A stretch of DNA of 15,001 nucleotides. It comes from Candidatus Pelagibacter sp. Its GTDB lineage: Bacteria; Pseudomonadota; Alphaproteobacteria; Pelagibacterales; Pelagibacteraceae. This document shows positions 3,089 to 15,001 of the stretch, in pieces. The notes below the pieces were generated by a model. The model was not told the DNA's origin. It did no database searches and worked only from the letters and a program-made list of their open reading frames with translations. The stretch is from the NCBI GenBank assembly GCA_013204495.1, contig JABMNQ010000151.1:1-15001 (forward strand), written 5' to 3'. The position numbers were made by a program, and so were the translations under genes. The first letter of the stretch is position 1, and the number at the start of each line of letters is the position of its first letter.

Positions 3089-4846
3089 ATGCTTAATTCT
3101 GAAGAATTAATAAATAAAGTTAAAATATATAATAAGTTTTTAAATCCTGAAAAATTAAATAAAGCATACAATTATGCTGTCAAGGCTCACGAGAACCAGA
3201 GACGTGCTTCTGGTGATCCTTATTCCAATCATCCAATAGCTGTTGCTAGCATACTTACTGAACTTGAGTTAGATAGCGCCACCATTGTTACTGGGTTACT
3301 TCATGATACTATAGAAGATACTTATGCCACTTACGATAATATTAAAGAGGAATTTGGAGAAGAAATAGCAGACTTAGTTGAAGGTGTAACTAAAATTTCT
3401 ATTTTTGAAAACCAAGCTAACGCAAACTCTAAAGCAGAAAATTTTAGAAAATTAATTTTAGCAACTTCAAAAGATATTAGAGTGTTACTTGTAAAACTTG
3501 CTGATCGTTTACACAACATGAGAACAATCGATGCTATTAGCATAATTGAAAAAAAGGAACGGATTGCAAAAGAAACTATGGAAATTTATGCACCATTAGC
3601 AGACAGAATGGGTATGCATATAATTAGAGATGAGCTAGAGGATTTATCTTTTAAAGTTCTAAATAATAATGCAAGAGTACTTATAAAAAAAAGATTAGAT
3701 GAAATTAAGGAAGATAAGGCAAATAGCTTTAATTCAATCTCGTTGCAATTTAGTAAACTATTAAATGAAAACAAAATAAATTCTAAAATTATTGGTAGAG
3801 AAAAAACACCATTTTCTATTTGGAGAAAAATTCAAAAAAAAAGAATATCACTAGAACAAATTTCAGATATTATTGGATTTAGAATAATACTTGATAGTGT
3901 TGAAGAATGCTACAAAGCTCTTGGTGTATTTCATAAAGAATGGAATTGCATACCAGGAAAATTTAAAGATTATATTTCATCTCCTAAAATTAATAAATAT
4001 CAATCATTGCATACTTCAATTATAGGACCAAATAGAAGACCAATTGAAATACAACTTAGAACGCTGCAAATGCACGATTATGCAGAAAGAGGTATTGCTT
4101 CTCACTGGAAATATAAATCTTCTGAAAAATTCAATGCCTTAACTTGGAAAGAATATGACTGGCTAGCTGATTTAGTTGAGATTATTGAGAAGAATGATAA
4201 CCCAGAACACTCTTATGAGTACACTAAGCTACAAATGTTTCAGGAAAATGTTTTTTGTTTCACCCCAAAAGGATCTGTAATTAAACTGCCAAAAGATGCA
4301 ACACCTATAGATTTTGCTTATGCAGTTCATACAAAAGTAGGAGATCATGCGATAGCTTGTAAGATTAACGGTAAAGATAGTGAACTACAAAGTATTCTTC
4401 GCAATGGAGATGTTGTGGATATAATAACTTCCAAAAACAAATCACCATCATTACACTGGATACCAATTACCAAAACAGGAAAAGCAAGATCAGCAATTAG
4501 AAAATATTGGTATAAAAAAGGTGAAGAGAAGGCCCAAAGAATTAAAAAATATAATACCACACTATGGATTTCTTTAACTGATAAACCAGGAAAACTAGGG
4601 GAGATTACAACTTTAATTGGTCAACATAGTTTAAATATATCAAGTGTTGAAATGAAGGAAAAGTCTAAAGAATATATTAATTTTAAATTCAATCTAATTA
4701 TAATAGACTTGAAAAACTTTACAAATTTTATCAGTGAGTTAAAACAAAAAGAGATAAAATTTAAAATCATTAGACATGAGGACAACTGGTTAAAGGAACG
4801 AAATGCTTTCACACAAAAAATCTTTAAATATTTTAAAAAAAACTAA
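3089..4846 (+). CDS. rsh: Bifunctional (p)ppGpp synthetase/hydrolase, RelA/SpoT (Rsh) family, shortened
   Basis: Long Rsh enzymes make and degrade the alarmone (p)ppGpp in response to starvation. Domains in order: HD hydrolase about 25-150 with His48, HD at 72-73 and RLHNM at 140-144, all apparently intact; synthetase about 235-345, with KINKYQSLHTS and RPIEIQLRT; TGS about 388-450; ACT about 491-563. The synthetase-site tetrapeptide is KFKD (291-294), the basic RxKD-like form linked to bifunctional Rsh rather than the acidic ExDD of RelA, so both activities are likely. At 585 residues it is well short of the usual 700 or more. Only about 40 residues separate TGS from ACT, so the helical and zinc-finger/conserved-cysteine segments appear to be absent. 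Its end overlaps pyrE by 44 bases. In a genome with few regulators it may be the only alarmone enzyme (inference). Confidence 0.94.
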   Translation: MLNSEELINKVKIYNKFLNPEKLNKAYNYAVKAHENQRRASGDPYSNHPIAVASILTELELDSATIVTGLLHDTIEDTYATYDNIKEEFGEEIADLVEGVTKISIFENQANANSKAENFRKLILATSKDIRVLLVKLADRLHNMRTIDAISIIEKKERIAKETMEIYAPLADRMGMHIIRDELEDLSFKVLNNNARVLIKKRLDEIKEDKANSFNSISLQFSKLLNENKINSKIIGREKTPFSIWRKIQKKRISLEQISDIIGFRIILDSVEECYKALGVFHKEWNCIPGKFKDYISSPKINKYQSLHTSIIGPNRRPIEIQLRTLQMHDYAERGIASHWKYKSSEKFNALTWKEYDWLADLVEIIEKNDNPEHSYEYTKLQMFQENVFCFTPKGSVIKLPKDATPIDFAYAVHTKVGDHAIACKINGKDSELQSILRNGDVVDIITSKNKSPSLHWIPITKTGKARSAIRKYWYKKGEEKAQRIKKYNTTLWISLTDKPGKLGEITTLIGQHSLNISSVEMKEKSKEYINFKFNLIIIDLKNFTNFISELKQKEIKFKIIRHEDNWLKERNAFTQKIFKYFKKN

Positions 4847-5390
4847 TGCACTACTGGAAGGTCATTTTGTACTTTCATCAGGGCTACATTCTCCAAAATA
4901 TATTCAGTGCGCAAAGTTATTAAGTTTCCCACACTTAGCAAAAAACATTTGTAGATCTTTAGCAAAAAAAATAAAAAACAAATTCAAAAATATAGATTTA
5001 ATCTTAGCACCAGCAATGGGTGGCGTTATTATTGGATACGAGGTTGGTAAACTATTAAAAAAAGAAACAATATTCTGTGAAAGAGTTAATGGAAAATTCA
5101 CTTTAAGAAGAGGCTTTCATATAAGGAAAGGTTCGAAAGTCCTAATTATTGAAGATGTTATAACGACAGGCAAATCGAGTTTGGAGTGTGTAAAATTAAT
5201 CAATAAACCAGGAGCTAAGCTTGTTGGTTTTGCCTCTATTATAGATAGATCAACCAAACAATCTCTAAAAATAAAAACAAAAATTATTTCTCATATGAAA
5301 ATAGATGTGCCAACATTTAAGAAAAATGCTCTTCCAGAAAGTCTTAAAAATACTCCAATTACAGTTCCTGGAAGTAGATTTATCAAATGA
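4803..5390 (+). CDS. pyrE: Orotate phosphoribosyltransferase PyrE
   Basis: 195 residues. PyrE joins orotate to PRPP to give orotidine monophosphate in pyrimidine synthesis. The PRPP-binding loop LIIEDVITTGKSS (114-126) is clear. GHFVLSSGLHSPKYIQ near the N terminus and LRRGF at 101-105 (the mobile-loop end) match the family. The ATG at 4803 lies inside the rsh reading frame (44-base overlap). It is needed because the conserved ALLEGHF segment begins about 15 residues later and spans the rsh stop, so a start after rsh would cut it off. The gene ends in an ATGA overlap with pdxJ. Confidence 0.95.
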   Translation: MLSHKKSLNILKKTNALLEGHFVLSSGLHSPKYIQCAKLLSFPHLAKNICRSLAKKIKNKFKNIDLILAPAMGGVIIGYEVGKLLKKETIFCERVNGKFTLRRGFHIRKGSKVLIIEDVITTGKSSLECVKLINKPGAKLVGFASIIDRSTKQSLKIKTKIISHMKIDVPTFKKNALPESLKNTPITVPGSRFIK

Positions 5391-8583: not shown

Positions 8584-9573
8584 TTATTTAATTATTTTGT
8601 CAATTCTGTCAGCGAAGTAACTGACAATAGCGCTTGCACCAGCTCTTTTAAATGAGATTAGACTTTCTAATATTGAGTTTTTATCTATCAAGCCGCCTTT
8701 AATGCCATTGCTTAATAAGCTATATTCACCTGATACCTGATAAGCTAAAACAGGAATTTTAAAATTGTCTTTTACAGTTCTTATTATATCTAGATAGGGC
8801 ATTCCTGGTTTAACCATAACCATATCTGCTCCCTCTTTAATATCTAGGGCAACTTCTCTTATTGCTTCATTGCTGTTACGAAAATCCATTTGATAAGTTT
8901 TTTTATCACCTTTTAACAATCCCTTTGATCCAACGGCATCTCTAAAAGGCCCATAAAAGCTTGATGCATATTTTACGGCATAAGAAAGAATTTGAACCAT
9001 TTGATGACCTTCTTTATCTAATGCTTTTCTTATTTTCCCAATTCGTCCATCCATCATATCTGATGGTGCAAGAACATCACATCCCATTTCTGATTGTAAT
9101 AATGATTGTTTAATTAAAACTTCAGTTGTTTCATCATTTAAAACATACCCAGATTTTATCAATCCATCATGACCATGGGACGTATATGGATCTAACGCAA
9201 TATCACACATAATGCCAATTTCATTTTTATATTTTTTTTTAATATATCGAATTGCTTTACATACCAGATTCTCTTCGTTTAAAGCCTCTGTACCAATTTT
9301 ATTTTTTAAGTTTTTATTTGTATAAGGAAACAATGCAACCATAGGTATTTTGTTCTTAATTGCTTTATCAACGATAAAGCCAAGTTTATCTATTGTATGC
9401 CTGTATACATCTGGCATAGTTTTTATGGATTGTTTCTTATTTTTTCCATCAATTAAAAATATAGGCAAGATAAAGTCACTTGATGAGAGGCTATTTTCCT
9501 GAATAAGTCTTCTAGACCAATCGTTTTTTCTACTACGTCTAAGTCTTAGGTTTGGATAGTTTCCTGTTATCAT
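8584..9573 (-). CDS. hemB: Delta-aminolevulinic acid dehydratase (porphobilinogen synthase) HemB
   Basis: 329 residues, full length. HemB condenses two 5-aminolevulinate molecules to porphobilinogen for haem synthesis. The two active-site lysines are seen: Lys201 in SYAVKYASSFYGPFRDA and Lys255 in MVMVKPGMPYLD. The metal-site segment reads DIALDPYTSHGHDG (124-137), with Asp and Ala where zinc enzymes carry cysteines. It therefore looks like the magnesium-dependent class found in many alphaproteobacteria and plants. The segment LLKGDKKTYQMDFRNSNEA is also typical. It is encoded opposite to both neighbours, convergent with recO and divergent from the oxygenase-like gene. An A9 tract on its coding strand (9240-9232) keeps the frame (RYIKKKYK). 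Confidence 0.97.
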   Translation of the reverse strand: MITGNYPNLRLRRSRKNDWSRRLIQENSLSSSDFILPIFLIDGKNKKQSIKTMPDVYRHTIDKLGFIVDKAIKNKIPMVALFPYTNKNLKNKIGTEALNEENLVCKAIRYIKKKYKNEIGIMCDIALDPYTSHGHDGLIKSGYVLNDETTEVLIKQSLLQSEMGCDVLAPSDMMDGRIGKIRKALDKEGHQMVQILSYAVKYASSFYGPFRDAVGSKGLLKGDKKTYQMDFRNSNEAIREVALDIKEGADMVMVKPGMPYLDIIRTVKDNFKIPVLAYQVSGEYSLLSNGIKGGLIDKNSILESLISFKRAGASAIVSYFADRIDKIIK

Positions 9574-11981: not shown

Positions 11982-12436
11982 TTTGTTCAATTTGTAAAAA
12001 AGGTGAAACATCAGTAGTAGATTCTAGACCAACAGAAGATGGAACGGCCATTAGAAGAAGAAGACTTTGTGTTTGTGGTGCTAGATTTACAACTTTTGAA
12101 AGAGTTCAGTTTAGAGAATTAATGGTTGTTAAAAAAAACGGTAGAAAATCATCTTTTGATAGGGACAAATTATCAAAATCTATTTATATAGCGCTTAAGA
12201 AGAGACCAATAGATACAGAGACGGCTGAAAAATTTATAAGCAAAATATCAAGGGCACTGGAGGAGCTTGGTCAAAGTGAAATTTCATCTAGCACTATTGG
12301 CACTATGGTTATGGAAGGTTTAAAAGAACTTGACCCCGTAGCGTACGTGAGATTTGCATCCGTTTATAGAAACTTCAGAGAAGAAAAAGATTTTGTACAA
12401 TTCGTGGACAAAATAGATGTCTACAAAAAAAGATAA
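11978..12436 (+). CDS. nrdR: Transcriptional repressor NrdR
   Basis: 152 residues, the family length. NrdR senses ATP/dATP and represses ribonucleotide reductase genes by binding NrdR boxes. The N-terminal zinc ribbon is recognisable: CSIC (Cys3, Cys6), [17 protein letters not shown], then [13 protein letters not shown]. The second knuckle is C-x-C (Cys31, Cys33) instead of the usual C-x-x-C; the bases around 12066-12078 show one codon fewer and no frameshift. The ATP-cone domain follows at about 50-140 ([16 protein letters not shown] to [13 protein letters not shown]). No NrdR box or nrd gene is seen here, so its targets lie elsewhere. The glyA-nrdR-ribD order is common in alphaproteobacteria. 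Confidence 0.95.
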
Positions 12437-13523
12437 ATTTTCTAAAAAGGATAAAATATATATGAAGCTTGCCTTAAATTTGGCAAGTGCAAGACACGGT
12501 CTTACTGGCGTTAACCCTTCTGTTGGATGCGTTATTGTCAAAAATAATCAGATTATATCAATAGGACAAACTGGTTATGACGGAAGACCTCATGCAGAAT
12601 ACAATGCAATTAAAAATTCAAATGAAAGTTTAAAAGGCTCTAAGATGTATGTAACTCTTGAACCATGTAATCATTACGGAAAAACTCCACCTTGCACAAA
12701 TTTAATAATTAAGAATGAGATTAAAGAGGTGATTTATTCGATAGAAGATATAGATAAAAAAGTTAAAGGAAAAACCTTTAAAATTTTAAAAACAAAAAAT
12801 ATTATTATCAAAAAAGATTTGCTTAAAAATGAAATAAATAATTTTTATTCATCTTATTTTTTTAATAGAAAATATAAGCTCCCATACGTAACTGGTAAAA
12901 TAGCTGTTTCAAAAAATAATTTAATTTATAGTGAAAAAACGAAAAAAATTACCAACATACATTCAGATAAGTTTTCACATTTTCTCAGGTATAAAAATGA
13001 TTGTTTAATGATTTCTTACAAAACTTTAAATAAAGACAATCCTAAACTAAATTGCAGAATAGAGGGCTTAACAAAATTTTCACCAAAGAGGGTAATTTTA
13101 GATAACAACCTTAAAACAAATACTACTTCATATATTTTTAAAACATCAAATAAAAACAATACAATTATTTTTTACAATAAAGCAAATAATGTGAAAATTT
13201 CACTATTTAAAAAAAAAGGTATTCAATTAATTAAAACAAATTTGGTTAATGATAAGTATTTTGATTTAAAATCAATTCTTAAAAAACTTTATAAAATGGG
13301 ATGTAGAAATATCTTAATAGAAGGTGGAAATGATCTGACAGGAAATCTTTTGAAGAAAAAAATTTATAATCAATTTTATTTATTTAAAAGCCAAAAAAAT
13401 CTATCCAAAATTTTTGCTTATAAAGATTTTAATTATTTTAAAAATTTGATACAAAATTATAGATCTAAACAAAAAGTTATTACAAAATTAGGTAAAGACA
13501 CTATTATATTATATAAAAAATAA
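12417..13523 (+). CDS. ribD: Bifunctional riboflavin biosynthesis protein RibD (deaminase/reductase)
   Basis: 368 residues, full length. RibD deaminates the GTP-derived pyrimidine and then reduces its ribosyl side chain. The deaminase half shows [12 protein letters not shown], the zinc site PHAEYNA (His59, Glu61) and [13 protein letters not shown] (Cys84, Cys93). The reductase half (about 155-368) has [23 protein letters not shown] and LIEGGNDL. It is rather divergent, for instance ISYKTL where a Gly-containing motif is usual. I chose the ATG at 12417 (20-base overlap with nrdR) because [12 protein letters not shown] aligns with residues that precede the internal Met16 in other RibD proteins. 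A start at Met16 (12462) has a good AAGGA ten bases upstream and remains possible. Confidence 0.95.
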
Positions 13524-13524
13524 T

Positions 13525-14118
13525 ATGTTTAATGGAATAATTTTTAATCAGGGATCAGTAAATAATGTCACTAAAAGACCAAGGGGCATTAATTTATTTG
13601 TAAAGTCTGATCTAAAACTAACAAATAAAGACTTGGGTGTCTCTGTTTCTTTAGACGGTGTTTGTCTTACCTTAATATCAATCAGTTCAAAATTAATGGA
13701 ATTTTATCTTTCTAATGAAACTCTAAAAAGATCTAAATTTAAATATCTTAAAATTAACGACAAAATTAATCTTGAATTACCCCTAAAATATGGTCAAAAA
13801 ATTTCCGGCCATATATGCCAAGGTCACATTGATACAATTGGAAAAGTTTTGAGTATAAAAAAAATTGATAAATCATATTTGTTTGATTTTGAAATTATAA
13901 CAAAAGAAAGAAAAAATTTAATAGAGAAAGCTTCAATTTGTATTAATGGAATCTCTTTAACCATATCAAAAGTAACTAAAAAGGGTTTTCAAATATGGGT
14001 AATTCCCCACACATTTAAACTTACCAACCTGTCTGTTTTAAATAAAACTAGTCTAGTTAATATAGAGATAGATATCTTATCTAAATACGTTAGAAATTAT
14101 TTTAATGAAAAAAAATAA
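13525..14118 (+). CDS. ribE: Riboflavin synthase (alpha chain type)
   Basis: 197 residues, typical. Riboflavin synthase dismutates two 6,7-dimethyl-8-ribityllumazine molecules to riboflavin and the pyrimidine precursor. Two lumazine-binding barrels are seen, about 1-90 and 91-190, each with its internal repeat motif: DGVCLTL (44-50) and NGISLTI (141-147). The opening MFNGII and GHICQGHIDTIG (95-106) are diagnostic. It starts one base after ribD and overlaps the ribB start by 14 bases. The lumazine synthase gene ribH would be expected just right of the window. Confidence 0.96.
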   Translation: MFNGIIFNQGSVNNVTKRPRGINLFVKSDLKLTNKDLGVSVSLDGVCLTLISISSKLMEFYLSNETLKRSKFKYLKINDKINLELPLKYGQKISGHICQGHIDTIGKVLSIKKIDKSYLFDFEIITKERKNLIEKASICINGISLTISKVTKKGFQIWVIPHTFKLTNLSVLNKTSLVNIEIDILSKYVRNYFNEKK

Positions 14119-14464
14119 CTTCTCCTCAATAGAAAACATAATCAATATCGCTAAAAAAGGTGGAATGTTCATTTTAGTGGATGATGAAAAAAGAGAAAAT
14201 GAAGGAGATTTAATAATATCGACGAGTGACTGTAATTCAAAAAATATTAATTTCATGGCTAAGTATGGTAGGGGATTGATTTGTTTGGCACTCGATAGTG
14301 TCCAAGCAAAGAAACTAAACTTGACTCTTATGTCTCCTGTAAATGAGTCTAGAAATAAAACCGCATTTACCATTTCAATAGAAGCAAGAAAAGGAATTAC
14401 CACTGGTATATCCGCCATGGATAGAGCTAAAACAATTAAGATTGCATCAAAAAAAAAATGTTAA
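14105..14464 (+). CDS. ribB: 3,4-dihydroxy-2-butanone 4-phosphate synthase, N-terminal fragment before frame break
   Basis: 119 codons open from an ATG inside the ribE end. The sequence is the first part of RibB, which makes the four-carbon unit of riboflavin from ribulose 5-phosphate. FILVDDEKRENEGDLI (22-37) carries the metal and substrate acidic residues. GRGLICLALD, FTISIEARKG and TTGISAMDRAKT follow in normal order. The frame then meets an A10 tract and ends in KKKC and a stop at 14462. A normal domain is about 200 residues and its later catalytic motif (GHTEA) lies beyond the break, so this fragment alone should not be active. The sequence downstream restores homology one nucleotide out of frame. 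Confidence 0.9.
   Translation: MKKNNFSSIENIINIAKKGGMFILVDDEKRENEGDLIISTSDCNSKNINFMAKYGRGLICLALDSVQAKKLNLTLMSPVNESRNKTAFTISIEARKGITTGISAMDRAKTIKIASKKKC
14449..14458 (+). repeat. A10 homopolymer at the ribB frame break
   Basis: Ten consecutive A residues follow C14448. With nine the reading would go S-K-K-N-V-N-K-K-E-I-V and join both halves of RibB without a stop. With ten the gene stops six bases later. It is the longest homopolymer I find in the window. The A9 tracts in rsh, rnc, recO, hemB and ribD are all in frame. Confidence 0.9.
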
Positions 14465-15001
14465 TAAAAAAGAAATTGTCTCTCCGGGGCATGTCTTTCC
14501 TATAATTGCTAAAGATGGCGGTGTACTTGTTAGGGCAGGTCACACTGAAGCTTCAGTAGATATTTCAAAATTAGCTAAAAAAAATAATTCAGCGGTAATC
14601 TGTGAAATAATGAATGAAAATGGAACAATGGCCAAAGGACAAGAATTATTTAATTTTGCTGAAAAGCATAAACTGAAAATAGGCAAGATTGAAGATCTTA
14701 TTGCTTATAGACTTAAAAAAGAAAAACTAATTAGATTAAAAAAACAATCAGATATTAAAGTTAAAAATCAAAAATATAAAATTAGAATTTATGAAAATCT
14801 TTTAGATGGTTCAGAACATTTTGCTTTAATAAAGGGCAATATAAAGAAAGGCACTATACCTAGGGTTAGAGTAATTTCCTCAAACGTAGTACAAAACTAT
14901 CTTATCAATCAAAATATACCAAATTCATTTAATAAAACTTTAAATTATTTTAAAAAATTTAATAATTGTGTCTTAGTCTTTATAAAAGATACAAACTTAA
15001 A
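14457..15001 (+). pseudogene. ribB: RibB C-terminal part plus degenerate RibA-like domain (RibBX type), out of frame with its start, cut by window edge
   Basis: From 14457, one frame off the upstream fragment, 181 codons are open to the right edge. They begin NVNKKEIVSPGHVFPI and continue with GGVLVRAGHTEASVDI, ICEIMNENGTMA and IGKIEDLIAYRL, the second half of DHBP synthase including the conserved GHTEA histidine. After a Lys-rich linker comes YENLLDGSEHFALIKGNI, resembling the start of GTP cyclohydrolase II (RibA). The GCHII zinc-site region (SeCxTGD...RCDCG) is absent, so this domain is degenerate, as in RibBX proteins. No in-frame ATG, GTG or TTG lies near the junction, so it is not an independent gene. 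The strong conservation on both sides argues against old decay. Confidence 0.85.

Follow-up and report, generated by a model that had tools for sequence, protein, structure and literature searches.

An apparently split ribBA gene at the end of a SAR11 contig

The stretch of DNA analysed here (the window) is 15,001 bases long and constitutes a whole contig (G000:C140) of a draft genome of 197 contigs that is 85.67% complete. Close to its end two conserved halves of a ribBA-type gene were found in different frames, with the frame change located at a tract of ten A (A10). The best named matches of this gene were from Pelagibacterales (SAR11). The contig end falls inside the gene, 543 bases past the A10 tract. 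The features of this region are:

12417..13523, plus strand: open frame of 368 aa, which contains an A9 at 13209-13217 and which we take to be ribD-like
13525..14118, plus strand: open frame of 197 aa, the upstream neighbour, presumably riboflavin synthase (ribE); overlaps the start of the split gene
14105..14464, plus strand: upstream open frame of the split gene, 119 aa, N-terminal part of DHBP synthase (RibB domain), with a stop just after the A tract
14449..14458, plus strand: A10 tract with the frame change; the homologous site is in frame in 109 of 109 relatives
14457..14999, plus strand: downstream open frame with the remainder of DHBP synthase, followed by the beginning of a GTP cyclohydrolase II (RibA-like) domain that the contig end truncates

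The upstream half matched positions 1-107 of the profile PF00926 (E 2.2e-37) and the downstream half positions 110-191 of the 191 (E 4.9e-31), and the DHBP synthase domain is complete when both halves are taken together. In the downstream half this match is followed by one to PF00925, GTP cyclohydrolase II (E 1.6e-6, 28.3 bits compared with a cut-off of 23.3), which is partial because the contig ends. Because the PF00925 domain comes after PF00926, the split gene is of the fused ribBA type and not ribB alone. The first-pass annotation had named it RibB, which is correct for the DHBP synthase domain but does not describe the whole gene. The halves also matched successive stretches of the bifunctional family NF010626 with 147.9 and 170.2 bits; the cut-off is 513, and low scores are expected for fragments. 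The gene resembles a bifunctional ribBA (DHBP synthase/GTP cyclohydrolase II) in its domain order and in its successive NF010626 and PF00926/PF00925 stretches, but differs in lying in two frames on the window's contig, and the contig stops short of its last 68 residues, counted by the intact protein P0123 described below.

The downstream frame is open from the tract through the window's end, whereas the third frame reaches a stop after 15 codons. A single frame is restored by one A fewer or two A more in the tract, and the tract length is the only fault seen in the gene. The first-pass annotation had described a one-base excess in an A10 that splits the gene, two well conserved halves and a -1 frame that stops after about 15 codons. 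All of this could be confirmed, the conservation by the PF00926 match in each half.

Each half of the gene had a single match in the readable own genome. This search covered the readable contigs, small contigs being masked as N: of 41 own contigs or stretches inspected, the window among them, 15 read as N, and all 15 are shorter than 3 kb. A search for a second intact ribB, which had been proposed earlier, yielded none within these readable contigs, and a second copy as a backup was rejected within the same scope. The C-terminus of ribBA, ribH and nusB were not found in the readable own genome either, an absence that the masked contigs make uninformative.

The tract site in related genomes

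Relatives of the locus were fetched with the first half alone as query, and therefore an intact second half was not selected for. Among 61 genomes searched near the window's, 49 matched, counting the own genome; 30 loci were available, the window's own among them. The search of named genomes found 470 relatives, of which the best 80 were kept, and the two sets may share genomes. When the own locus was left out, 109 of 109 relatives were in frame, and in each the flanking motifs were exactly 19 residues apart. The run at the site was an A9 in 62 of them and shorter or interrupted in 46, and the single relative with an A10 was in frame with a different following codon. A slippery tract was thus not kept among the 109 relatives. 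An A9 in close relatives had been named earlier as a test for an error, and the 62 relatives fall on the side of an error. Among the 80 named loci, 76 had a full-length frame (355 codons or more), and 4 run off the locus.

In a wider family sample, matches were obtained in 282 of 397 genomes, with the shortened frames taken from a part of these matches. Those of G266, G408, G367 and G345 end with their own contig, and that of G319 is in frame past the site and has a stop later. The ribBA of G240 (L213, G240:C17) carries at least two frame changes at other A tracts and is in frame at the studied tract. G273 and G064, both with matches near a contig end, were left out of the site comparison. A frameshift shared at the site was found in 0 of the 109 fetched relatives and was rejected for this set; the shortenings followed up in the wider sample are contig ends, other tracts or a later stop.

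Intact and broken forms among database proteins

The two halves were joined to a query of 298 residues, for which 7,910 of 8,000 scored proteins passed 1e-60; the list comprises the best 120. The search is restricted to lengths between 0.55 and 1.75 times that of the query, so that intact forms are favoured and short truncated forms cannot appear. All 120 listed proteins (best 120 of 7,910) were in frame at the site with lysine-lysine-asparagine, and 118 had a length of at least 345 aa. The protein P0123 (366 aa; 2 contigs, the longest of 24,013 bases) is intact and 100% identical over all 298 readable residues. A further 68 proteins, P0124-P0191, also among the best 120 of 7,910, are 97-99% identical and in frame at the site. 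Compared at the protein level only, P0123 as the closest intact sequence shows no difference from the window except the frame at the tract. The part after the tract is identical in both, with no decay downstream. P0123 cannot derive from the window's contig as assembled, because this contig ends before the gene does. It may be independent of the own assembly or may belong to the own genome, as another database protein seems to do (P0241, whose contig of 28,774 bases has the length of own contig C30), and a frame-correcting gene caller may stand behind it. P0121 and P0122, RibBA proteins with lengths of 492 and 512 aa, contain a repeated internal stretch and are possibly assembly duplications.

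With the truncated frame of 119 residues as query, 1,267 short proteins of 8,000 scored passed 1e-30, and 120 were listed. None of the 120 listed of 1,267 was 100% identical to the truncated form of the window, the best reaching 97%. At the site 20 of the listed proteins were plus-one and 21 minus-one, and 46 continued in frame beyond it; a further 32 were classed as other, and 1 lacked an anchor. The classes follow a simple residue rule with a few ambiguous assignments, and as the search selects short proteins these counts give no rate. Short proteins with a plus-one break at the tract thus exist in other lineages. P0001, which is 97% identical and stands for a close relative, is broken at this tract in the opposite direction, and its tail corresponds to the window's third frame. 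As judged from these predicted proteins, the comparison shows that breaks of both signs occur at one tract. Some broken forms stand for several sequences, such as P0004 (26) and P0015 (21, longest contig 9,514 bases), which fits a recurring error or a recurring mutation. The longest contig was at most 1,710 bases for 39 of the 41 forms broken at the site. This was rejected as a sign of thin coverage: contig shortness carries no weight because many other listed short proteins are also on short contigs.

Frame breaks and long runs in the own genome and in relatives

The own sample consisted of 40 contigs or stretches and the window (277,751 bases, 36,051 of them N). Frame breaks were scored against the ORFs of five relatives, by which 167,768 own bases were covered. 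Three breaks were observed, in ribBA, in glutamate 5-kinase and in a gene which we take to be penicillin-binding-protein-like. The latter is split near runs of seven A (own contig C70, L177 about 8666-8681, minus strand). The glutamate 5-kinase break (own contig C30, L173 about 12733-12763, minus strand) adjoins a run of four A, and P0338, an 89% identical protein from another source on a 1,743-base contig, breaks off at the same residues; among the intact relatives listed, identity does not exceed 92%. Because P0338 ends at the same residues, this break was dropped as a sign of error and may be real.

The samples of the five relatives contained four break places in 682,123 covered bases, one in G022, three in G012 and none in G030, G086 and G123. 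The own rate (3 in 167,768 bases) was not significantly higher than that of the relatives (4 in 682,123 bases; p = 0.14), and an unusually error-rich own assembly is therefore not supported. Two of the four breaks in relatives, both in G012, are located at A10 and A12 tracts. The genome of G012 is closed and consists of a single contig of 1,343,202 bases. In a gene that is presumably KDO-transferase-like, the frame changes at the A10 (G012:C1, L136 about 4650-4860, minus strand). Of 31 matching genomes, 30 have this gene open over 400 aa and G012 alone has a shortened form, so that the split was rejected as a shared event. The frame change at the A12 (G012:C1, L148 about 8823-8865, plus strand) lies in a gene assumed to be SMP-30-like, which also stops in G013.

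Long runs are usual in the own genome and usually in frame. The own sample contained 18 A/T runs of at least ten, of which 12 are located well within a region that a relative's protein matches: the window's run and 11 others, all 11 crossed without a change of frame. The A10 had been regarded as exceptional within the window, a view that fails genome-wide. It had also been stated that the five other A9 tracts of the window are in frame. Indeed, all five lie in long open frames, but they are four A9 and one T9, the latter in a minus-strand gene.

The three own breaks occurred in roughly 180 genes, estimated as the covered bases divided by about 950. For metagenome contigs, the published figures are 0.32-1.02% (Illumina) and 2.13-2.78% (454) of genes with homopolymer errors (PMC3277595). 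The own figure lies between these two ranges, the published values referring to homopolymer errors only.

Origin of the A10 tract

Probably the consensus of this one fragmented SAR11 draft assembly gives the tract a wrong length, and we infer that the tract is in frame in the sampled cells. This reading is favoured because all 109 relatives are in frame, P0123 is intact and identical, and breaks occur both ways at the tract. The lack of a 100% copy among the 120 listed short proteins, the published rates of homopolymer errors and the contig end 543 bases past the tract also speak for it. A homopolymer error had already been put forward as the simpler explanation, and it gains from the 62 of 109 relatives with an A9. 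Against it counts that the search that found P0123 favours intact forms and that P0123 was compared as protein and not as DNA. In addition, the own break rate is not significantly raised, the glutamate 5-kinase break recurs in P0338, and some broken RibB forms (P0004, P0015) represent several sequences. Homopolymer frameshift errors in metagenome assemblies (PMC3277595) resemble the present case in the single-base change in an A run, the conserved gene and the draft contig. The listing of both directions at the same site is a further likeness, with the error as the inferred cause in the present case.

From the assembly and the protein comparison, an error and a private mutation cannot be separated with certainty; an error is most likely and a private mutation ranks next. 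The latter, a rather unlikely explanation, would be a recent replication slippage in one cell line or subpopulation that made the tract one base longer and broke the gene, either in a short-lived mutant or as a minority allele taken by the assembly. According to PMC3812077, indels in homonucleotide repeats become commoner as the repeat length grows. Breaks of both signs at the tract recur in database proteins, some of which stand for several sequences, and closed G012 has breaks at an A10 and an A12, the former in G012 alone of 31 matching genomes; both observations would agree with a private mutation. However, the part after the tract is identical to intact P0123 and no such break is present in any of the 109 relatives. 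Riboflavin synthesis is normally essential without uptake, which also counts against a private mutation.

SAR11 bacteria are free-living and not endosymbionts. If the A10 were genuine in the population, slippage of RNA polymerase or of the ribosome could restore the frame in part of the products, which is considered improbable. The tract is long and the downstream part is without decay, and for insect endosymbionts 12-50% corrected transcripts on long poly(A) are given in PMC5009743. Eight genes of Blochmannia vafer have frameshifts in homopolymers that are perhaps corrected by slippage (PMC3017870), and bypass of indels in repeats is described for the laboratory in PMC3812077. The split gene shares with the Buchnera and Blochmannia cases (PMC3017870 and PMC5009743) an AT-rich genome, a long A tract and an otherwise intact conserved gene. 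It differs in that part of those frameshifts are shared by several populations or species and gave mixed transcripts, whereas here the break is absent from all 109 relatives; moreover, the lineage here is SAR11. The run is shorter or interrupted in 46 of the 109 relatives, so the slippery site was not kept. Rescue needs one A fewer or two more, but among Buchnera transcription errors insertions predominate in homopolymeric runs (151/157 insertions compared with 16/57 deletions, PMC5574713), so that the required change goes in the rarer direction. The commonest slip, one extra base, is of no help here because the tract has one base too many, and a ribosomal minus-one shift would enter the frame with a stop after 15 codons. 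The first-pass annotation had considered slippage rescue a plausible case, for which no support was obtained. Within a limited literature collection, no paper was found for SAR11 together with 'transcriptional slippage'.

Even more doubtful is the broader proposal that free-living SAR11, whose AT-rich genomes contain many long A tracts, tolerate out-of-frame poly-A tracts in essential genes via RNA polymerase slippage, which would include the split ribBA, the recurring plus-one forms and the A10 and A12 splits of G012. Least probable of all is a fixed pseudogene in a lineage that lost RibBA and depends on riboflavin uptake or another copy instead. That each half matches only once within the readable own genome would be compatible with such a loss, but the halves are conserved with the tract as the only fault seen, and all 68 listed proteins of 97-99% identity pass the site in frame.

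Slippage rescue, if true, would bring a process known from endosymbionts into a free-living bacterial group that ranks among the most abundant. With the A10 as a consensus error, which is the preferred reading, the organism's gene would cross the tract without a frame change, like that of the 109 relatives, and its product would be an ordinary bifunctional RibBA protein. A poly-A frame break in a single AT-rich marine draft contig should not be taken as gene loss or recoding until the reads have been checked.
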